Shown: positions 15,344 through 34,251 of the stretch, one piece after another
Layout: each line of letters opens with the position of its first letter
How positions within the stretch are numbered: the first letter of the stretch is position 1
NCBI GenBank assembly: GCA_015228995.1
Contig: JADGCM010000003.1
Span: forward strand, 1 to 34,265
Source: Magnetococcales bacterium
GTDB taxonomy: Bacteria; Pseudomonadota; Magnetococcia; Magnetococcales; JADGCH01
Length of the DNA: 34,265 nt
Direction: 5' to 3'
Notes under the pieces: model-generated
Told to the model about the DNA's origin: nothing
The model's input: only the letters and a program-made list of their open reading frames with translations
Database searches by the model: none
Made by a program: the position numbers and the translations under genes

Positions 15344-17128
15344 CCGACATTCCGCAGTTGTTTTGTAGTTTTTTTGATTTTACGTTCTGCTGCCCCTCCC
15401 ATGTTCTACGATGAAGTCGTATTGTTTTACACGGTATCTGTGTAAACAAGATTGACGAGGTGGTGATGAGCATTCAAGTGAACCAAGTAAAGGCGTTGAT
15501 TCTTGATCATTTTGGTTTGGTGTCTGCTGTGGCAACGGACTTGGGTATTGTGGGCATGATTGATGCGCGGCTTCCAACGACAGATCGTTCTCATGCAACC
15601 ATGGGGCAACGGACGTTGGCCATGATTTTGAATGGACTTGGTTTTTTGAATGATCGGCTCTATATGGTGCCGAGGTTTTTTCAGAACAAGCCGCTGGAAC
15701 GTCTTATTGGGCCTGGTGTTAAGGCTGAACATTTGAATGACGACGCACTGGGCCGGTTACTGGATAGCGTTGCTGAATATGGAACGACGAAGCTGTTCGG
15801 TGAGATTGCATTCGAGATTGGAAGTAAACAGGGGTTGATAGGACGATCAGCCCACTTAGACACAACTAGTTTAATGGTTGTCACCCATGGTTACTCGAAG
15901 GATTACAGGAATGACCTGAAGCAGGTTGTTTTGTCGTTGACGACGACTGGGCCTGCTGGTTTTCCGATCTGGTTCGAAGCCTTGGCCGGTAATAGCAGTG
16001 ATAAGGTCTCCTTCCATGAGACACGAGACCGGGCAACAGAATTTCAGAAGCAGTTGTCAGCGAGTCATTTTCTGTATTGGGTAGCGGATTCATGTTTATA
16101 CACTGTTGGTAAACTGTTGTCTGTAACCGATACAATGTGGATACCAGGGTTCCTGACACGGTGGGTGATGCAAAAGCACTGACCATGATGCCACGGGAAC
16201 AGTTTGAGTGGCAGGAGATCGGCAACGGTTACCAGATAGCGGGAATTGGAAGCAACCATGGTGGTTTACGACAGCGGTGGTTGCTGGTCTATTCTGAACA
16301 GGCCGCCAAAAGGGAGACAGAAACATTCAATAAAAGCCTTGAGAAGATTGATGAGAAGCTCAAGAAGGACGTGTGGCATTTGGAGAATCAGTTATTTACG
16401 GAAGAGTCCTGTGCTGATAAGGCATGCCATGAGTTCAGCAAGAAACTACGCTGTCATCATGCAGAGTATACGGTTACAGCTGTGTTCAAGCACACCCAGC
16501 GCGGTCGTCCGAAAGCTGGTCAGCAAGCTGCTGATATTCGGATATGCGGTAAAGGTGGCATGGTCACGTCATGATGCTGCCATAGACGCCGAACTGAGGA
16601 GTAAGGGCCGTTTTGTTTTGGCGACGAATCAGCTAGATCATGATGAGCTGAGTGATTTGGAGTTTTTTCAGGAATACAAGGACCAGAGCCAAGTGGAGGG
16701 AGGGTTTCGATTCCTCAAGGACCCGTGGTTCATGGTAGACTCCATATTCTTGAAGACTCCAAAACGGATTGAAGCGTTGATGATGATCATGACCCTGTGT
16801 CTGATGGTTTACAACGTTGGCCAGTATCAGTTGCGAGAAAAGCTTTCTGCACAAGGTGGCTTCCTTCCCAACCAAGTTGGTAAACAAGTTCAGAACCCCA
16901 CCTTGCGTTGGGTTTTCAGAGTCATGGAGGGGATAACAATAGCCCGTGTGATGCTTGGTGGAACGATCAACGAGACTGTCCAAGAGATCGTGTGTAATGT
17001 GGATGATTTGCACGAAAAGATCATCCGCTATTTTGGCAAGCATGCCATGAGTATTTATGGTGTGACTTGAATGTTATAGCCTGTTCGTGAAAATGAAAAA
17101 AATGGCGTCAACAACTGCGGAATGTCGG
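15344..17128 (+). mobile_element. Insertion sequence of IS1634/IS4-superfamily type (1785 bp)
   Basis: 19-bp perfect terminal inverted repeat CCGACATTCCGCAGTTGTT / AACAACTGCGGAATGTCGG; flanking 6-bp direct repeat ATGTAT at 15338-15343 and 17129-17134; DDE transposase inside. Confidence 0.93.
15466..17070 (+). pseudogene. IS1634-type DDE transposase interrupted by two frameshifts
   Basis: HLDTTSLMV, YWVADSCLYTVG, VEGGFRFLKDPWF motifs are spread over three overlapping reading frames (15460-16182, 16137-16574, 16246-17070). Confidence 0.85.
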
Positions 17129-18274
17129 ATGTATGGGCGCTTTCTGTCTTTTCTGGGCACACGGATCAACATTCGGGTCACGTTCATCCTGATCGGTGTT
17201 GTGGTGCTGTTACAGATGGCCTTGGCCACCTATGCTTAGCTGGTCGACAGCGGATGTTACTGCAAAAGGCCGCTAAAGAGTTTTTTATCCTCATGGATGG
17301 CCAGAGTTTGCTGGTGGAGTCAACCCGTCGCCAACTCGACACCACGATATGGGGCTTCGATGCCACACTGGAAGCGTTAATCAATGGTGGTTTGGCACCA
17401 GAACGTCTGGACAAACAATCGGCTATGGTGGTTGTGGTGACGCCACTGCCTCATGTGAAGGTGCAGTTGCTACAAATCCAAACCGGTTGGCGCCCTTTAC
17501 GTGATGCGCTGCAATTGGCGCTGGAGGAAAATGCTTGGCAACGGCTATCACAAGAGACGAGAAAGCGGGTTGCCCACGACAGCACACAATTGCTGGAAGC
17601 TATGGATCGTGCCACCACCATGATCGGTCAAGTTTCCAGAGAACAGATCCAATTCGTGCATACCGGATTGACTCGCAGTGCGATTGGCAGCGTCGTTTTT
17701 GCTGTCAGTTTGCTGCTGTTTTGGGTGTGGCGTTACGTAACGTTGGTGGGGCAATTACACCGTTTTGGCGATCATTTGGTAGCGCTGGAGCAGGGCAAAT
17801 TGCTCTATCGTAGCCACGGCGACACTTTTGTGTCGGAGCTGGCTTTTTTTGGTGAGCGCATCAATGCGACAAGCGATGCGGCAGCTAGCGAATGTGGGCG
17901 ATCCTCCTTTTGATGTACGTGCTATCAAACAGGCCCACATGAAATGGTTGGGACGGTTGGAGCATGTGGTGCGCGGTCGAGCTCGCTTGCGTCCGGAGGA
18001 GGTGGCCAGTGGCCATGAGTGTGCCTTTGGCAAGTGGTACGATAGCGCTGGCAGCGAAATATTCGGTCAGTTGCCCCTCTTCCAAGAGATGGGCATTGCC
18101 CACATGGCCGTTCATGAAAAGGCGCGCGCCATCGTTGTACTGGTTGCCAACGGAGAAACTGAAGCGGCGGTTGCGGCCATGGATCAATTTGACCTCTTGC
18201 GGCGCGAACTGTTCACTTATCTAGATGCCCTATATGTTGACCCGGATCAGAGGCGGCAGCTACCAACCAACTAA
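17129..18274 (+). pseudogene. Decayed membrane sensor: N-terminal TM, periplasmic region, HAMP-like, CZB zinc-binding domain
   Basis: Frame 2 MYGRFLSFLGTRINIRVTFILIGVVVLLQMALATYA*, then frame 1 GRQRMLLQKAAKEFFILMDG...HAMP, then frame 2 CZB (HMKWLGRLEHVV...HECAFGKWYD...AHMAVHEKA). Confidence 0.75.
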
Positions 18275-18297: not shown

Positions 18298-19506
18298 ATG
18301 AAACGTAGAGAATTTCTTCAGTCGTCTATGGCCATGGCCGCCGGTGCGGCCTTACCGACTTTGGGGGCAGCAGCGGAGCCGGCCTCAGTGGGCAAGCCCG
18401 TGGTCAAGAGCTACCGACAGTTGGGCAAGACAGCCATTACCATGAGTGATATCTCCTTTGGGGCGGGCAAGTTGGCTTCTGCATCAATGATTCTGCGTGC
18501 CATCGATCAGGGGGTTAATTATTTCGATACCGCCCCTGATTACGGTAGTAGTGAAGCCTTGATCGGCGAGGCCATGACCAAGTTCAAGCAACGCGATAAA
18601 ATTTATATCGCTTCCAAGTATTGTGAGGCAATTCCCTATCCAGCCCATTTAGCTATTGGTAAGTCTAAGGCCGATTATATCGCCGCTGTCGATGCCAGCT
18701 TGAAACGGATGAACTTAGATTATTTGGATGTCGTTTTTGTCCATGCTATTGGTGAGAAATCTGCTTCGGTAGAGCAAGAGCAGCAGCGGCTGCTAGATGC
18801 TACCATGCTGGAGGCAACGGAGGCCCTGAAAAAAGCCGGTAAAGTGCGTTATTTAGCGGTTTCTTCGCACGGTCCCAACAACCTGGAACCCTTATTGACA
18901 ACGGCAGTGGCCAGCGGCCACTATGATATCATCATGACCGCTTTCAATTTCATGAAGTTTCCCCAATTGCCCGAAGTTCTCAAAATGGCCGCAGCTCGTG
19001 GCGTTGGCATCATCGCTATGAAAACTTTGGCGGGGGCCAAGGAAAGCCAAGTGGAGGCCGGAGCGGCTGTTTTTGAACATGCTGCCTTCCGTTGGGTACT
19101 GAAACATCCTCAGATAGCTGGTCTGGTGGTTACGATCAAAACAGTGGACGATTTGAATCTTTATCTACAGGCCTCTGGCAGCTCTTTTGCGGCGGCCGAC
19201 CAACAAGCATTGGATCTCTACGCGGCGCGCCATGGACAAAATTATTGTCGTACTGGCTGTGGTGACTGTATGGGCTCTTGTCCGCAGGGTGTTGATATTG
19301 CCAATATCTTGCGTTACCAAATGTACTTTGAAGACTACGGCGACGAAAAACGAGCGATGCAAAGCTATGCGGCGTTGAGCCATTCGGCCTCACCCTGTGC
19401 CAGTTGTCAGCAACCGAGCTGCACGGCAGCTTGCAGTCACGGCTTGCCGGTAGCCAATAAGCTACAAGCGGCGCATCGGACGCTATCGTTTACTATGGTC
19501 GCTTGA
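18298..19506 (+). CDS. Tat-type aldo/keto reductase with C-terminal Fe-S cysteine clusters
   Basis: KRREFLQSS twin-arginine signal, YFDTAPDYGSSEALIGEAM, CRTGCGDCMGSCPQGVDI and CASCQQPSCTAAC. Confidence 0.88.
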   Translation: MKRREFLQSSMAMAAGAALPTLGAAAEPASVGKPVVKSYRQLGKTAITMSDISFGAGKLASASMILRAIDQGVNYFDTAPDYGSSEALIGEAMTKFKQRDKIYIASKYCEAIPYPAHLAIGKSKADYIAAVDASLKRMNLDYLDVVFVHAIGEKSASVEQEQQRLLDATMLEATEALKKAGKVRYLAVSSHGPNNLEPLLTTAVASGHYDIIMTAFNFMKFPQLPEVLKMAAARGVGIIAMKTLAGAKESQVEAGAAVFEHAAFRWVLKHPQIAGLVVTIKTVDDLNLYLQASGSSFAAADQQALDLYAARHGQNYCRTGCGDCMGSCPQGVDIANILRYQMYFEDYGDEKRAMQSYAALSHSASPCASCQQPSCTAACSHGLPVANKLQAAHRTLSFTMVA

Positions 19507-20450
19507 TGGCTGCTGAAGCGCCGGTAGCCGTACGGTTGCTGTTGTTAGTGCTGTTGCCGTTGTTGGCAGCGGTGTTGTATGGGCGGGGGCAGCATTACGA
19601 TTCTACTTTGCTGGACTTCAAATCGGCGCGCAACCCGGTGACGGTGCTGTTGCCGCACCAAGCCGGTGATTGGCAACGTCAGGCTGAGGTGCGTTTGTTC
19701 GGTAAAGATAACCTCTACGAGTACATCAACGGCCATGCTGAGTATTTTTTAGGTGCCGGTTTTCGCTCTTTGGTGGTGGCCGAATATCGGTTGCCGACCG
19801 ACACTCGGCCATCGGTGGTCGCTGATGTCTACGACATGGGGGAAGCGATCAACGCCTTTGGTGTCTTGATGGAGGAGATGGGCCCCACCGGCCAATCTGT
19901 TGACATCGGCGAGACTGGCTTACAAAGCCAGCGCAGTCTGGGTTTTACCAGCGGCCCCTATTACGTCAAATTGGCCGCTTTTGCCGATCATCTACCGCTA
20001 TCGACGCTGGCGCAAACGATCAACAAGGCCTTGTTCAAAACGGCCGGGCCTGCTCAGGGTCGCATCTCCTGGCAAGGCCTTTTTCCCGATCTGGGCACGG
20101 TCACCAGCAGCCGCTTTATCAAGGAAAATTACCAAGGCTGGAGTTTTCTGCAACGTGTGGTCGAACGCAGTTTTATCCGCGCCGATGGTACCGTGATCCG
20201 TGCCTTCAGCGTCTCTGGCACAGCGGAACAGATGGCTGCGGTGCAACAAGCGTTGCTGACATTCATGCGCCAGGAGGAGAATAAGGTAACGGATACCCAG
20301 GTCGATGGAATGCGAATCCTGCAGATCACGGATCGTTACGAAGGAGATTGGATTTTGCTGCCGGTTAATAAGGGTTGGTTGGGGGTTTTTCATCCCCTGG
20401 ATTCGCTGTTGCAACAGCAACTAAAGGCTTTTATGAGCTCCCATGGATGA
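19503..20450 (+). CDS. DUF6599-like protein of unknown function
   Basis: N-terminal TM/signal, DNLYEYINGHAEYFLGAGFRSL, VVADVYDMGEAINAFGVLMEE; starts by ATGA overlap with preceding gene. Confidence 0.7.
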   Translation: MMAAEAPVAVRLLLLVLLPLLAAVLYGRGQHYDSTLLDFKSARNPVTVLLPHQAGDWQRQAEVRLFGKDNLYEYINGHAEYFLGAGFRSLVVAEYRLPTDTRPSVVADVYDMGEAINAFGVLMEEMGPTGQSVDIGETGLQSQRSLGFTSGPYYVKLAAFADHLPLSTLAQTINKALFKTAGPAQGRISWQGLFPDLGTVTSSRFIKENYQGWSFLQRVVERSFIRADGTVIRAFSVSGTAEQMAAVQQALLTFMRQEENKVTDTQVDGMRILQITDRYEGDWILLPVNKGWLGVFHPLDSLLQQQLKAFMSSHG

Positions 20451-21468
20451 GAATGATAAAAAGCGTGTTGGCTCCCGCATCAATAAAGTCGAGCCAGCCT
20501 GGAGTCGACGCCGTCTTTTAGTCGAAGCGGGTATCACTACAGCAACGGCAGCGGCTGTGGGCGCCGTTGGCTACTGGGGTTACAGTTCTGAGGCGGTGCG
20601 GCATGCACCGCAGCCGATTTTGACCCTTAAAGACTTCCGAGTGGCGGCCAATACCCTGTACCCATCGCTGGTAGTGGTGCGTGGCGATGCGGTGGCAAAA
20701 ATGGTAGCGGAAGCATTGACACTGTTAGGCGGTATGCAGCGCTTTATCCAACGTGGTGATCGCGTCTTATTGAAGCCCAATGTTGGTTGGGATCGCCAAC
20801 CAGAGCAGGCGGCCAATACCAACCCCGAGGTTGTGGCGGCGGTCGCCCATCTCTGCCGGGAGGCTGGTGCGGCACAGGTATGGGTTACCGATTGCTCCAT
20901 CAACGATCCCCAACGTAGCTTTGTCCGTTCTGGCATTGAATTAGCTGCCCAGCAGGCTGGAGCGACCGTCAAATTACCAGCCAGCAACGATTTTTACCTC
21001 ACCAATATGCATGGCAGTCTCCTCAAAAATTGGCCCGTGGCGCGGTTCTTCCACCAAGTCGATAAGGTGATCAACCTGCCGGTGGTCAAGCATCACTCTC
21101 TAAGTGGCTGCACCGTGGCGATGAAAAATTGGTACGGGGTGTTGGGAGGGCAACGCAACCGCCTCCATCAGGACATCCATACCTCAATTGTTGATTTAGC
21201 CGCTGCTCTGCGACCGACGCTGACCATCGTTGATGCCACGCGGGTGTTAAAACGCAATGGTCCTTCCGGGGGCAGCCTGGATGATGTCGCACTGGAGAAC
21301 ACCTTAGTGGCTGGTCTGGATGAAGTCGCCTTAGATGCCTGGGCGTTGCCTCTGTTGGAATTGACGGTGACGCAGGTACCCTATTTGGCCATGGCTGAGG
21401 CGCGCGGTTTGGGAACCGCTAATTGGCGCAGTCTCCATTGGCTTGAACGTCAGCTCGGATCTGGGTGA
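20443..21468 (+). CDS. DUF362 domain-containing protein
   Basis: DRVLLKPNVGWDRQPEQAANTNPEVVAA, VINLPVVKHHSLSGCTVAMKNWYGVL. Confidence 0.85.
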   Translation: MDENDKKRVGSRINKVEPAWSRRRLLVEAGITTATAAAVGAVGYWGYSSEAVRHAPQPILTLKDFRVAANTLYPSLVVVRGDAVAKMVAEALTLLGGMQRFIQRGDRVLLKPNVGWDRQPEQAANTNPEVVAAVAHLCREAGAAQVWVTDCSINDPQRSFVRSGIELAAQQAGATVKLPASNDFYLTNMHGSLLKNWPVARFFHQVDKVINLPVVKHHSLSGCTVAMKNWYGVLGGQRNRLHQDIHTSIVDLAAALRPTLTIVDATRVLKRNGPSGGSLDDVALENTLVAGLDEVALDAWALPLLELTVTQVPYLAMAEARGLGTANWRSLHWLERQLGSG

Positions 21469-21477
21469 GGGTGCGGG

Positions 21478-22989
21478 ATGTTGCCCAATTTGCGTGCCAT
21501 TCGCCGCCTATACGCTGGCTTCTTTTTGGTGCTGTTCCTGTTGCTGTTGTGGTTGGCCGACTTTAGCCACCTGCAGGGCTATGAGGTTAGCCTGTTTTTG
21601 GAGCTTGACCCTCTAACTGCTTTGGCGGGCGGTCTGACCAGTGCCACCCTCTATCGTGGTCTGGCGCTGTCGTTGTTAATCATCATCTTGACGCTGTTTT
21701 TGGGCCGGTTTTTTTGCTCCTGGGTCTGCCCATTGGGGATCATCAATCAGATCACCAGCCATCTTTTTACGCGGCGGCGACCGGCAGAAGAATATAGACG
21801 CAACCGTTATCAACCGATCTTTCGCATCAAGTATTACCTGTTGACGGCGCTATTGGTTATGGCCGCTCTGGGGGTGTTGCAGATTGGTCTATTGGATCCC
21901 ATTGCCTTGATTACCCGTTCTTTTGTTGTGGGTATCTGGCCTGCCTTGCAGCAGGGCGGGGCTGGTTTTTATCTATCACAGCCCTATTTTATCGGCGGTG
22001 TTTTGATCGCTTTGATTTTATTGGCTATTCTGGTAGCTAATCGCTTTATGACCCGTTATTGGTGTCGAGTGCTGTGCCCTTTGGGAGCGCTGCTGGGGCT
22101 ATTATCATGGCGACCACTGCTCCGTATCCGTCGCGATGTCGATAAATGCAACGATTGCCACAAATGTCTCCAATTTTGCCAAGGTGGTTGTGACCCCGAC
22201 GGGGCCTTGCGGGTGAGCGAATGTCATGTCTGCATGAATTGTATCGAGCAATGCCCGGATGGAGCACTGCACTACGGTCTGGCACAACCGCGCAGCTCCA
22301 TCCACCAGCCGCTTGATGTCAACCGCCGCCGCTTGTTAGAGAGCGGTGTGGTGGCGATGGCTTTTGTTCCCTTGTTGCGCAGTTCTTATTCATCGGCGGC
22401 TTCGCCGCACCCAGCCGTCATTCGTCCGCCTGGATCGTTGCCGGAGCTAGATTTTCTCGCCCGGTGTATTAAGTGTGCAGCCTGCATGCGCGTCTGCCCG
22501 ACCAACGTGCTGCAACCGGCCCTGTTAGAGGGAGGTCTGGAGGCCCTGTGGACGCCGATTTTGGTGAATCGTTTGGGCTATTGTGAACACCACTGCGTCT
22601 TATGTGGTCATGTCTGTCCCACCGGTGCCATTCGTCCGTTGACCGTAGCAGCCAAGGTCGGTACGACCAACCCATCTGAGCCCATCAAGTTGGGGACCGC
22701 CTTTTTCGATCACGGTCGTTGTCTGCCGTGGGCCATGCATACCCCGTGCATTGTCTGTGAGGAGGTGTGCCCGACCGCTCCCAAGGCTATTTGGTATCAG
22801 AAGACAACGATTACCGGTCGTGATGGCCAGCCAATCTCTTTGAAACAGCCTTACGTGGAGCCCGCCCGCTGCATCGGTTGTGGTATCTGCGAAAATAAAT
22901 GTCCTGTCAGCGACATGGCAGCAATTCGGGTGACATCGGTGGGGGAGAGTCGTTCTACCAAGAATGTCATGATTCTGCGTTCTCCATGA
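21478..22989 (+). CDS. Membrane 4Fe-4S polyferredoxin (NapH/NosR-like)
   Basis: CSWVCPLG, CRVLCPLGA plus CxxCxxCxxxC-type clusters CHVCMNCIEQCP, CIKCAACMRVCP, CIGCGICENKCP; multiple TM segments. Confidence 0.88.
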   Translation: MLPNLRAIRRLYAGFFLVLFLLLLWLADFSHLQGYEVSLFLELDPLTALAGGLTSATLYRGLALSLLIIILTLFLGRFFCSWVCPLGIINQITSHLFTRRRPAEEYRRNRYQPIFRIKYYLLTALLVMAALGVLQIGLLDPIALITRSFVVGIWPALQQGGAGFYLSQPYFIGGVLIALILLAILVANRFMTRYWCRVLCPLGALLGLLSWRPLLRIRRDVDKCNDCHKCLQFCQGGCDPDGALRVSECHVCMNCIEQCPDGALHYGLAQPRSSIHQPLDVNRRRLLESGVVAMAFVPLLRSSYSSAASPHPAVIRPPGSLPELDFLARCIKCAACMRVCPTNVLQPALLEGGLEALWTPILVNRLGYCEHHCVLCGHVCPTGAIRPLTVAAKVGTTNPSEPIKLGTAFFDHGRCLPWAMHTPCIVCEEVCPTAPKAIWYQKTTITGRDGQPISLKQPYVEPARCIGCGICENKCPVSDMAAIRVTSVGESRSTKNVMILRSP

Positions 22990-23035: not shown

Positions 23036-23536
23036 TCAGGCTACCTTCTGATAAGCGCTGTGTTTAGCGCCACAAATCGGGCACTGATCCGGTGCTTCAC
23101 CAAACACGGTATGACCACAGACGCCGCAGATGTGCAACATCTCGTGGTCCAGATCCTGGCCCTGCTCCAGTGCAGCGATGGCCTGCTTGTAAAGATCGCT
23201 GTGGACCTTTTCAACTTCCATGGCTTGGCGCATGCCCTGGGCAGCCCGCTTCTCCCCTTCCTCCTCGGCGGTGGCCACCATACCGGGATACATCTCGGTC
23301 ACTTCGTAATCCTCTCCAGCCATGGCTTCTTTCAAATTATCCAGGGTGGAGTGGATACCGCCCATATTGCGCAGGTGCGTGTGGGCATGCAGGGTTTCTG
23401 CCTCGGCAACAGCGCGGAACAGGTTGGCAATAACCGGGTAACCTTCTTGCTCGGCTTTTTTAGCAAAAGCCAGATACTTGCGATTGGCTTGGCTCTCACC
23501 AGCAAAAGCAGCTTTGAGATTGTCTTTGGTTTTCAC
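23036..23536 (-). CDS. Rubrerythrin
   Basis: LKAAFAGESQANRKYLAFAKKAEQEGYP diiron domain and CGVCGHTVFGEAPDQCPICGA rubredoxin-like C-terminus. Confidence 0.95.
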   Translation of the reverse strand: MKTKDNLKAAFAGESQANRKYLAFAKKAEQEGYPVIANLFRAVAEAETLHAHTHLRNMGGIHSTLDNLKEAMAGEDYEVTEMYPGMVATAEEEGEKRAAQGMRQAMEVEKVHSDLYKQAIAALEQGQDLDHEMLHICGVCGHTVFGEAPDQCPICGAKHSAYQKVA

Positions 23537-23548
23537 GATGGGGACTCC

Positions 23549-24682
23549 TTACTGATTGAGTTCTTTGATCAGAACTGATTTTTGGGTCGTAGCCTGACCA
23601 GTCAGGACAAAACCATCCAGAATGGCCTGCGCATTGAAATGGCGCCCGGTAACACCTGAATCGGATGGTTCTATCTCCCAATGCCCCTCTGTGGTACCGG
23701 GAGGCAAGGTGATGATAGGATATAACGTGGTTTTGATGGCAATGGGCATGACCGGATAGGTGACCGCCGTTTCCTGCCCGCAAAGGGTCGTTGCCAATGC
23801 CTTGGCTCCAGCCATCAGTGGTGCGACAAAGGGTAGATTACGACCATTGACTGCGGCGCAATCGCCCAAAGCGAAAATATCGGCAGCGCTGGTTCTTAGA
23901 TAGCCATCGGTCACAATGCCGCGCTCAACCTGCAGACCAGCCTGTTGCGCCAAGGCTGTAACCGGTCGAACCCCCACTGCCGACAGGATGAGATCGGCCG
24001 TGACAGTAACGCCATTTTTAAGTACTGTCCGGTAACCTGTGCCCGATTTTTCGATGGGACCATTAACGGTCTCAAGATGCCAGACAGCTCCATGACTGGC
24101 CAAAGCCTGCTGCACAGCCCGCCCTGCTTGTTCCGGCAACAGTGAGCTGATCGGCCAGCGATCCGGGCCAATAATGAGGACCTCACGTCCCGATTGCAAT
24201 AAATCGTTGGCAAACTCACAGCCAATCAGACCGGGTCCAATGATAGCGACGCGGCGTGATTGTTGGACCAGTTGCCGAAAATGGCCATAGTCGTCAAGGT
24301 TGTTGACCGACAGCACCTCCTGTGCACCGTCTCCGGTCAAAGGCAAGCGGATGGGGGTTGATCCAATCGCCAACACCAGTTTATCGTAAGTCAAACAAGT
24401 ACTACCGAAAGTGACCGTGTGTTGCTGTGGCTCAATAGCTGTCACAGGCGAGCCGGTTTTGATTTCTGCCTGTAGCTCGGATGCCATTTGCTCAGCCGTA
24501 GCCAGTGTCAGCGCTGTCGTATCCTTGTTTTGCGCCAAAGCTGTTGATAACAATGGCTTGGAGTAATAACGCCCCTCATCGGCTGTGATCAAAACCAGAG
24601 ATCCTGAATATTTCTGGCGACGCAGCTCCTTGGCTAGAGTGTAACCGGCTAGACCAGTACCAATAATACAGATAGGGTTCAT
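23549..24682 (-). CDS. FAD-dependent pyridine nucleotide oxidoreductase (rubredoxin reductase-like)
   Basis: PICIIGTGLAGYTLAKELR, RRVAIIGPGLIGCEFANDL, SAADIFALGDCAAVNG. Confidence 0.88.
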   Translation of the reverse strand: MNPICIIGTGLAGYTLAKELRRQKYSGSLVLITADEGRYYSKPLLSTALAQNKDTTALTLATAEQMASELQAEIKTGSPVTAIEPQQHTVTFGSTCLTYDKLVLAIGSTPIRLPLTGDGAQEVLSVNNLDDYGHFRQLVQQSRRVAIIGPGLIGCEFANDLLQSGREVLIIGPDRWPISSLLPEQAGRAVQQALASHGAVWHLETVNGPIEKSGTGYRTVLKNGVTVTADLILSAVGVRPVTALAQQAGLQVERGIVTDGYLRTSAADIFALGDCAAVNGRNLPFVAPLMAGAKALATTLCGQETAVTYPVMPIAIKTTLYPIITLPPGTTEGHWEIEPSDSGVTGRHFNAQAILDGFVLTGQATTQKSVLIKELNQ

Positions 24683-32565: not shown

Positions 32566-34251
32566 TTATTTTTGGTTCCATAGCACCGAACTTAGTTCCA
32601 ACAGCTCTCTTGCTGAAGAGAGCACACGAGCTGGCATGGGCTCGACCCGACCACGAATCTCCAATTGATGGAGCGGGTAGTCCACCTGGGGCAGGTTCGC
32701 CAGTTCAAAGACCGCCTCGGAGATGATAACCTGGGCATCGTACGCCTTGGTTAGACTTTCCAAACGGCTAGCGGTATTGACGGTATCCCCTATCGCTGTC
32801 GTCTGTCGTGCGGAACCGTATCCCATCTCACCAACAATGGCTGTACCAACATGAATGCCGATACCGATGCGTAACGGCTCGCTCAGCTCCTCTGCCAAAC
32901 TGGCGTTGAATTGATCCAGACTGTGTCCCATGGAACCCGCAGCACGGATGGCGTCTCGGCAACCCTGACCAACGTCGCCATTCAGACCAAACAAGGCCAT
33001 CACCCCATCACCAATAAATTTATCAAGTTTGCCACCGCATGATTCCACCGCCTCCCCCATAAAGAGAAAATAGCGATTGAGTACGAATAGAACATCAAAG
33101 GGCAGCCGCCGCTCCGAAAAAGAGGTAAATCCACGTAAATCAGCAAACAGCACCACAACATCCATCTCACGCCCATGGCGCTGTTCAACGGCAGCCAGCA
33201 CATCAGACGCCCCAACATTGGCTTTCAATAGTGGCCAAGCAGATAAATCTTGCTGCGCCCTCGTTTGACAAGCCAAACGAATGCTGCTGGGAGCCCCGAT
33301 CTGGTTCAAAACCTGGCGTTCCAACGGACTGGGCGGCAGTAGCGATTCACTACCGCTACCAACCCGCACCCGGCAAGTCGAACAGCGACCACGGCCACCA
33401 CACAAGCTGGGATGATTGATGCGCGCCTGCTGCAAGGTCTCAAGCAGCGTGGCGCCCGGAGTAATAGGAACGCGGTGACGGTCGGCATAGCGCAATAGCG
33501 GTCGGTTACCAACCCGACTGGAAAGGTAGCGCCGCAACACAGGTGACATCAAGGCGGCAGATACCAAGGCCAACAATCCAGCCTGAAACCAATTGGCCAT
33601 ATTGAGGGTTGGTGGCAACATCTCTAGGGCCAATCGAGTCTGCTGTGCCAATCTGCTAAATAATTCTGGGTCTGCGTCAGCCAGCCGGCGGATATGCAAG
33701 CCAGAAGCAATATACCCGGCCAAGGCCAGTGTTACCAAAACCCACATCAATGGCGGCCACAGCCAGTGCCAGCGCTTATACCAGGGGTGCAATCGAGCCC
33801 AGGACCAAACACCGATGGAAGCGTGGGCCCAGACCAATAACAACAACACCCCCTGGACAACGCCATCGCTGCCGTAGGCAACCCAGAGGCTGAACTGAAC
33901 CAAAGGATAATTGACATCCACATGGTAATAATCATCCAACATCAAGGCTTTGACCAGATGGGGAGCCAACAGCGGTAAAATCAGCAATCCCAGCCAAATT
34001 TGGGCGCGCTGCCAAGTAGGCAACAACAGATGACGGCGCCGCTGCAGCGTCCACAAGCCCAAAGCAGGATGGAGCAACAGGGCGGTGTAGAACACAAACA
34101 TCAGCGGCGGATGATTCCATATCTCGGTCAACCACACTGCCGCCCAGTCCTGCACCTCAATGGAGATAATCCCAAGCGCATGGTTGGTGAAATGGCTAAC
34201 AACAAATAACGCCAGCAACAGGCCACTTATCAGACGCAACCGATCTTGCAC
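32566..34251 (-). CDS. Membrane-anchored [2Fe-2S] ferredoxin - class III adenylate/guanylate cyclase fusion
   Basis: N-terminal TM helices with His residues, LCGGRGRCSTCRVRVG...LACQT plant-type ferredoxin cysteines, VVLFADLRGFTSFSE...KFIGDGVMALFG...GDTVNTASRLE cyclase; GTG start, frame remains open to window edge. Confidence 0.9.
   Translation of the reverse strand: MQDRLRLISGLLLALFVVSHFTNHALGIISIEVQDWAAVWLTEIWNHPPLMFVFYTALLLHPALGLWTLQRRRHLLLPTWQRAQIWLGLLILPLLAPHLVKALMLDDYYHVDVNYPLVQFSLWVAYGSDGVVQGVLLLLVWAHASIGVWSWARLHPWYKRWHWLWPPLMWVLVTLALAGYIASGLHIRRLADADPELFSRLAQQTRLALEMLPPTLNMANWFQAGLLALVSAALMSPVLRRYLSSRVGNRPLLRYADRHRVPITPGATLLETLQQARINHPSLCGGRGRCSTCRVRVGSGSESLLPPSPLERQVLNQIGAPSSIRLACQTRAQQDLSAWPLLKANVGASDVLAAVEQRHGREMDVVVLFADLRGFTSFSERRLPFDVLFVLNRYFLFMGEAVESCGGKLDKFIGDGVMALFGLNGDVGQGCRDAIRAAGSMGHSLDQFNASLAEELSEPLRIGIGIHVGTAIVGEMGYGSARQTTAIGDTVNTASRLESLTKAYDAQVIISEAVFELANLPQVDYPLHQLEIRGRVEPMPARVLSSARELLELSSVLWNQK

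Follow-up and report, generated by a model that had tools for sequence, protein, structure and literature searches.

Which of the four proteins encoded by a compact operon in a Magnetococcales genome is its catalytic core, and with which cofactor could it work? The operon occupies positions 18298-22989 of a 34,265-nucleotide stretch of DNA (hereafter the window; assembly GCA_015228995.1, contig JADGCM010000003.1) that comes from contig 42 of a 1.96-Mb metagenome-assembled genome of a Magnetococcales bacterium, 69% complete. The answer that we favour, with moderate confidence and on the strength of sequence comparison and structure prediction, is an extracytoplasmic quinone-linked redox system around the DUF362 protein, which would be an enzyme of the nickel-pincer nucleotide (NPN) type, exported by the twin-arginine translocation (Tat) system and joined to quinone through a polyferredoxin (PFD). 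Assigned to families with Pfam and NCBIfam profiles, the four genes are as follows.

18298..19506, forward strand: AKR, an aldo/keto reductase of 402 aa (PF00248, E 4e-31)
19506..20450, forward strand: DUF6599 protein, 314 aa (PF20244, E 3e-25)
20443..21468, forward strand: DUF362 protein, 341 aa (PF04015, E 7e-50)
21478..22989, forward strand: PFD, a polyferredoxin of 503 aa (NapH-like and NapG-like matches)

The original prediction, made from the letters of the window, of four closely packed genes is borne out by their coordinates and by a profile match for each family. Two of its junctions also stood, an 8-nt overlap at 20443 and a 9-nt gap leading up to 21478, but the ATGA junction placed at 19503 did not. 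The AKR/DUF6599 junction reads TTGATGG, with the AKR stop TGA at 19504-19506 and the natural DUF6599 start ATG at 19506, so that TGATG forms a 1-nt overlap of AKR with DUF6599. Tat motifs are present in three of the four proteins (AKR, DUF362 and PFD), while DUF6599 instead has an N-terminal hydrophobic helix. The signal on AKR had been recognized earlier and two further ones had been overlooked, SRRRLL at the start of DUF362 and NRRRLLES inside PFD.

Conserved clustering in other genomes was checked and is present. The order AKR-DUF6599-DUF362-PFD is kept in Magnetococcales wherever the fetched stretch spans all four genes. About 20 of the 296 Nitrospirota genomes have it as well (seen at L049 and at most of the 20 loci that were fetched); some of these loci are interrupted by foreign genes and others are cut by contig ends. 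Since the order is kept across Magnetococcales and Nitrospirota, chance can be excluded. A search for PF20244 (DUF6599) in 48 Magnetococcales gave 43 genomes with it, and 351 other Pseudomonadota sampled gave none. This recurrence and the homology of PFD to NapH and NapG support the earlier view of an extracytoplasmic or membrane redox operon; its genes are conserved together, and its Fe-S conduit resembles a quinol dehydrogenase. A more distant PFD is found in about 48 further genomes of Nitrospirota, and in the loci of this kind that were fetched a Tat-type DUF362 gene lies nearby, without this AKR and without DUF6599. The DUF362-PFD pair being found without AKR and DUF6599 in many Nitrospirota, DUF362 and PFD form the core, and AKR and DUF6599 define the four-gene type of cluster.

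A second DUF362-PFD type, adjacent or close and without DUF6599, was also seen in Nitrospirota (L134-L145 and L149). The DUF362 proteins of this type carry cleavable-looking Tat signals, and at L134 an ordinary aldo/keto reductase gene adjoins the pair. At L123 (4542-6706) and L129 (1412-6001) foreign genes stand between DUF6599, DUF362 and PFD with the four-gene order unchanged. The intervening genes of L123, L125, L128 and L129 were considered as a functional clue and set aside, as they look like unrelated insertions; the intervening open reading frame of L123 resembles a DNA cytosine methyltransferase.

LarC is the enzyme that inserts nickel into NPN. As DUF362 and LarA are contained in one Pfam clan (CL0471; PMC11770544), LarC was searched for, and in two clades of Magnetococcales it is part of the same neighborhood. 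The operon continues as AKR-DUF6599-DUF362-PFD-LarC-LarB-LarE in the first clade (L032, L033, L035 and L036), and in the second (L037, L042 and L059) the gene after PFD is LarE, towards which LarB-LarC are oriented. Where LarC comes directly after PFD, it overlaps or abuts the stop codon of PFD; in L033 and L036 its start overlaps that stop as ATGA, and LarE starts inside the end of LarB. LarB, LarC and LarE of the linked loci score well over the NCBIfam equivalog cut-offs. LarC is present in 41 of the 48 Magnetococcales genomes and in none of 13 other Pseudomonadota of the same sample, and LarA was found in none of the 48 (0 of 61 with the 13 others included). DUF6599 and LarC are both present in 39 Magnetococcales and both absent from 3, with LarC only in 2 and DUF6599 only in 4, each of these last four assemblies being no more than 76% complete (Fisher p 0.018, uncorrected for phylogeny).

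In Nitrospirota, LarC was found in 246 and DUF362 in 181 of the 296 genomes, and in 176 of these 181 the two occur together. The other five assemblies measure 1.4-2.0 Mb and are possibly incomplete. Conversely, DUF362 was not found in 45 of the 50 genomes lacking LarC. LarA was not found in 19 of 21 Nitrospirota genomes with a close PFD, nor in 71 of 80 tested genomes having both LarC and DUF362 (two Lar_N matches inside DUF362 genes were not counted). LarA therefore fails to account for the association of DUF362 with LarC in Nitrospirota. Among 14 control genomes, LarA is missing from those of Synechococcus elongatus and Haloferax volcanii, although LarC and DUF362 are both present. In Bacteroides ihuae, also in this set, DUF362 is present and LarC is not, so NPN use may not extend to all DUF362 proteins.

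The predicted fold points in the same direction. The AlphaFold2 model of the window's DUF362 protein (predicted local distance difference test score, pLDDT, 90.9; predicted template-modelling score, pTM, 0.83) was compared with all PDB entries and gave 19 matches with E below 0.001 (4e-6 to 2e-4, prob 1.00). All of these 19 best matches are LarA, malate racemase or other LarA-family NPN proteins or homologues, and unrelated structures begin at E 7e-3. When PDB sequences were searched directly with the DUF362 profile (hmmsearch), there was no match. A register scan was also made, in which all 75,000-85,000 ungapped registers of the DUF362 and LarA profiles were scored with windows of 22, 25, 30 and 40 (LarA residue numbers were verified on the PDB sequence). 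At all four window sizes the best register places DUF362 199-228 on LarA 155-184, that is H218 on H174 and K228 on K184. In LarA, Lys184 and His200 bind NPN, and His108 and His174 are the catalytic bases (PMC7583248). The divergent DUF362 protein L172 from Nitrospirota matches DUF362 (2e-56) and Lar_N (5e-5, profile positions 144-189) at once; its Lar_N match is slightly below the curated cut-off and covers the same segment as the H218/K228 register (KTHVQVGFTGGVK in L172 vs ESHFFAGFSGGRK in LarA). The relevant sites in the window, compared with 40 relatives, are given below.

20503..20520, forward strand: DUF362 twin-arginine motif SRRRLL, with RR (residues 22-23) in 40 of 40
21094..21096, forward strand: DUF362 His218, aligned to LarA catalytic His174 by register scan and hhalign, invariant in 40 of 40
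21124..21126, forward strand: DUF362 Lys228, aligned to LarA NPN-binding Lys184 by register scan, hhalign and L172, invariant in 40 of 40
21166..21168, forward strand: DUF362 His242, candidate equivalent of the Ni ligand LarA His200 by spacing only, invariant in 40 of 40

His242 stands at K+14 in DUF362 and His200 at K+16 in LarA, and a gap of two residues is needed to align them; because the spacing is 14 and not 16, His242 is a putative equivalent. R118 of DUF362, for which a correspondence to the NPN-binding LarA R75 was considered, is also invariant. The DUF362 protein thus shares with the LarA-family racemases and 2-hydroxyacid epimerases (DUF2088/Lar_N) a predicted fold, the clan CL0471, the H-x9-K segment, the reliance of the host on LarBCE and the gene linkage to larCBE. 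It differs from them in having its own Pfam family, a Tat motif, linkage to a quinol-dehydrogenase-type Fe-S protein, and a second catalytic His that is not identified. DUF362 had been left as poorly characterized in the original prediction; its fold, the active-site motif, co-occurrence and the larC-larB-larE continuation suggest that it is an NPN protein and probably the catalytic core.

The same evidence bears on the role of AKR, which had been regarded as the terminal enzyme. Its aldo/keto reductase fold, twin-arginine signal and two C-terminal Cys clusters were all confirmed, with the following features compared in 30 homologues.

MKRREFLQ: N-terminal Tat signal of AKR, with RR in 30 of 30
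D77-Y82-K107-H149: catalytic tetrad of AKR, called so from motif context, in 30 of 30
C317/C321/C324/C328 and C367/C370/C375/C379: C-terminal Cys clusters of AKR, Cys in 29-30 of 30

It could be argued that PFD feeds this Tat-exported Fe-S protein, which would reduce an extracytoplasmic carbonyl, and that DUF362 is an accessory without NPN whose linkage to larCBE is incidental. The retained tetrad and two Fe-S clusters agree with this, as do the first place of AKR in the operon everywhere and the fact that most genomes keep the four-gene cluster without adjacent larCBE. We nevertheless consider it unlikely, since under it the LarA-like fold, the invariant motif, the presence of larCBE in the operon and the finding of LarC without LarA would have no explanation, since the DUF362-PFD core occurs in many Nitrospirota without this AKR, and since NAD(P)H, the usual reductant of such enzymes, is not freely available outside the cytoplasm. 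The placing of AKR as terminal enzyme is accordingly not supported, and the indications lead to DUF362 instead.

The AlphaFold2 model of DUF6599 (pLDDT 89.9) has a hydrophobic helix at residues 7-29, and the protein has no Cys; it is probably a membrane-anchored extracytoplasmic accessory protein. Its fold has no significant match in the PDB, the best being TP0453 (E 2e-3) and RseB, both weak. Residues 7-266 of PFD are NapH-like (TIGR02163) and residues 279-486 NapG/MauM-like (NF007012/TIGR00397), with scores under the equivalog cut-offs, as expected of a fusion, and the protein carries two CxxxCP motifs and six 4Fe-4S motifs. Between the two halves lies a further signal.

22321..22344, forward strand: PFD internal twin-arginine motif NRRRLLES, residues 282-289, directly before the fifth hydrophobic segment

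This motif, NRRRLLESGVVAMAFVPLL, is conserved in the type-1 PFD alignment. By its sequence PFD is a NapH-NapG fusion and a member of the polytopic dual Sec-Tat polyferredoxin family described by Tooke et al. 2017 (PMC5449189), in which Tat-dependent export was shown for the MLMS-1 member Q1NSB0. The two proteins share the NapH-NapG fusion, the internal RR before the fifth transmembrane segment and the NapG-like 4Fe-4S domain, and the family has been reported in Nitrospirae too, as PFD here. They differ in that translocation of the C half is experimental for MLMS-1, while PFD is known here from sequence. PMC5449189 assigns no function to the fusion, and its text, searched with the terms aldo, NapH, NapG and ferredoxin, gave no link to DUF362 or NPN genes. 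NapGH, the quinol dehydrogenase of the periplasmic nitrate reductase, has domain homology to PFD and the same presumed direction from quinol to periplasm, but it consists of two separate proteins serving NapA, and the PFD operon is without NapA. We propose that PFD is a quinol dehydrogenase or trans-membrane electron conduit.

The mechanism that we infer assumes that DUF362 binds NPN and is exported in loaded form, that electrons flow through PFD, that the chemistry is a net redox reaction and not a racemization, and that AKR has a role. NPN would be made in the cytoplasm by LarB, LarE and LarC and loaded into folded DUF362 at Lys228 and His242. The Tat system exports folded, cofactor-loaded proteins, and this is in keeping with the cytoplasmic synthesis of NPN by LarBCE. 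Loaded DUF362 would then be exported by Tat, probably tethered by its N-terminal helix, and would work at the outer face of the membrane; Tat would likewise export the NapG half of PFD, and AKR with its two Fe-S clusters. Hydride could be exchanged between DUF362 and a substrate of the hydroxy/keto type, AKR might act on the same or a related carbonyl or alcohol, and the Fe-S clusters of PFD would carry electrons between this NPN/AKR module and the quinone pool. PFD, with NapH-like membrane and NapG-like extracytoplasmic clusters, would thus join DUF362 to quinone as NapGH does for nitrate reductase, and DUF6599 may be a membrane-anchored assembly or docking protein.

That Tat-exported DUF362 proteins in general are non-LarA NPN enzymes with net redox chemistry coupled to the quinone pool is a tentative proposal, to which we give slightly less than an even chance. 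Such chemistry is not the only one conceivable. All characterized NPN enzymes are racemases or epimerases with a hidden redox step (PMC7583248, PMC11851776), and H218 of DUF362 aligns with a catalytic His. DUF362 could be a periplasmic NPN racemase or epimerase without net redox, with PFD and AKR reactivating or maintaining an oxygen-sensitive NPN-enzyme or acting on a downstream keto intermediate. We regard this as quite improbable: the two-base mechanism requires two His (PMC12611868), none aligned to H108 was identified in DUF362, where the segment following the H108-type strand carries invariant N154-D155, and a dedicated electron conduit of eight motifs is unusual for a racemase. LarA homologues without catalytic residues might do other hydride chemistry (PMC7583248). 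Among the 19 best structural matches are cytosolic DUF2088 octamers with a proposed carbohydrate role, which have the NPN-type fold in common with DUF362 and, as DUF362, a reduced acid/base set suggesting chemistry other than racemization. In these octamers the H174 equivalent is Asn, whereas DUF362 keeps the H174 equivalent and lacks an identified H108 equivalent.

Several results weigh against an NPN-based, quinone-linked system. The linkage of larCBE to the operon is confined to two clades, LarC-LarB being separate elsewhere, and the assembly that holds the window, 69% complete, gave no LarC. Global TM-scores of the DUF362 model against LarA-family structures are low (0.3-0.46). The window's protein matches PF04015 only and has no Lar_N (PF09861) match even at E 10, by which measure it stands outside the LarA family, although it may work like LarA. 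The alignment of shallow DUF362 and LarA profiles by hhalign gave no meaningful match; broader profiles gave the expected register, weakly (E 0.05), and the top register of the scan exceeds the runners-up only modestly. No second conserved His of DUF362 aligned to LarA H108 was found, and equivalents of R75 and of the catalytic residues D72 and K298 were not established. The association of DUF362 with LarC in the 296 Nitrospirota (Fisher p 2e-16) is uncorrected for phylogeny, and 70 Nitrospirota have LarC without DUF362, of which only 2 have LarA and 68 have neither. Other NPN clients must therefore exist: the client in these 68 is either another NPN protein or a divergent DUF362 missed by the models. 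DUF362 cannot be the sole non-LarA NPN client, and LarC alone is no predictor of DUF362. Finally, a hydride carrier would need a partner that splits electron pairs before Fe-S clusters, and the operon has no evident protein of this kind, for example a flavoprotein. LarC genomes without LarA or a PF04015 DUF362 include G408, G415 and G426.

About 15% of analyzed genomes, many of them of cyanobacteria, are reported to have larB, larE and larC but not larA, and so must load NPN into non-LarA proteins (PMC11796402, 2024 mBio). For this problem the operon offers a candidate non-LarA NPN client, two candidate cofactor residues (K228 and H242) and an electron-transfer partner, and the candidate is directly testable as an E. 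coli co-expression system for NPN enzymes has been published. Should the proposal of net redox chemistry in Tat-exported DUF362 proteins hold, an NPN enzyme would for the first time be placed in a respiratory chain and outside the cytoplasm, and NPN would shift from a cofactor of hidden-redox racemases to an exported respiratory one. DUF362 more widely would then be a main missing NPN client in genomes with larBCE and without larA, including those of cyanobacteria and haloarchaea, and there would be a mechanism for one of three domains of unknown function that occur in redox operons of bacteria. The clan relation of DUF362 and LarA and the dual Sec-Tat NapH-NapG fusion family are already known; what is added here is the linkage of larCBE to the operon, the pattern of LarC without LarA, the register of residues and the association with an exported fusion of quinol-dehydrogenase type. 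In the literature searched, with subscription journals mostly outside it, DUF362 was nowhere tied to NPN function, and prior publication is possible.

Magnetococcales are a lineage known for magnetotaxis, and the operon might serve such bacteria in forming magnetosomes or in redox reactions of iron in the periplasm. The magnetochrome (MCR) domain is indeed present in 9 of the 21 Nitrospirota with a close PFD (G460, G481, G497, G532, G548, G552, G628, G636 and G642) against 6 of 275 others (p 3e-8). Shared ancestry is an adequate explanation of this association, 12 of the 21 cluster genomes are without magnetochrome, several magnetochrome genomes are without the cluster, and the cluster flanks showed no connection with magnetosome genes, which makes such a function very improbable. 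The nickel cofactor of cable bacteria was also considered and dropped; the paper on it favours a dithiolene-like centre and mentions LarA for contrast only.

As to the surroundings of the operon, a rubrerythrin and rubredoxin reductase pair (window 23036-24682, reverse strand) is convergent with it. Both were rejected as members of the system because they are not conserved neighbors, since L037 and L040 are the only other loci with a reductase homologue close to the cluster. Upstream, a DUF4277 transposase-like protein spread over several frames (15460-17070) is probably a decayed insertion element, and PilJ N-terminal and CZB zinc-binding domains in two overlapping frames (17122-18274) are apparently a single chemoreceptor-like gene broken by a frameshift. 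Further away (32566-34251, reverse strand) an adenylate/guanylate cyclase domain is fused to a 2Fe-2S ferredoxin domain, possibly a redox-sensing cyclase.

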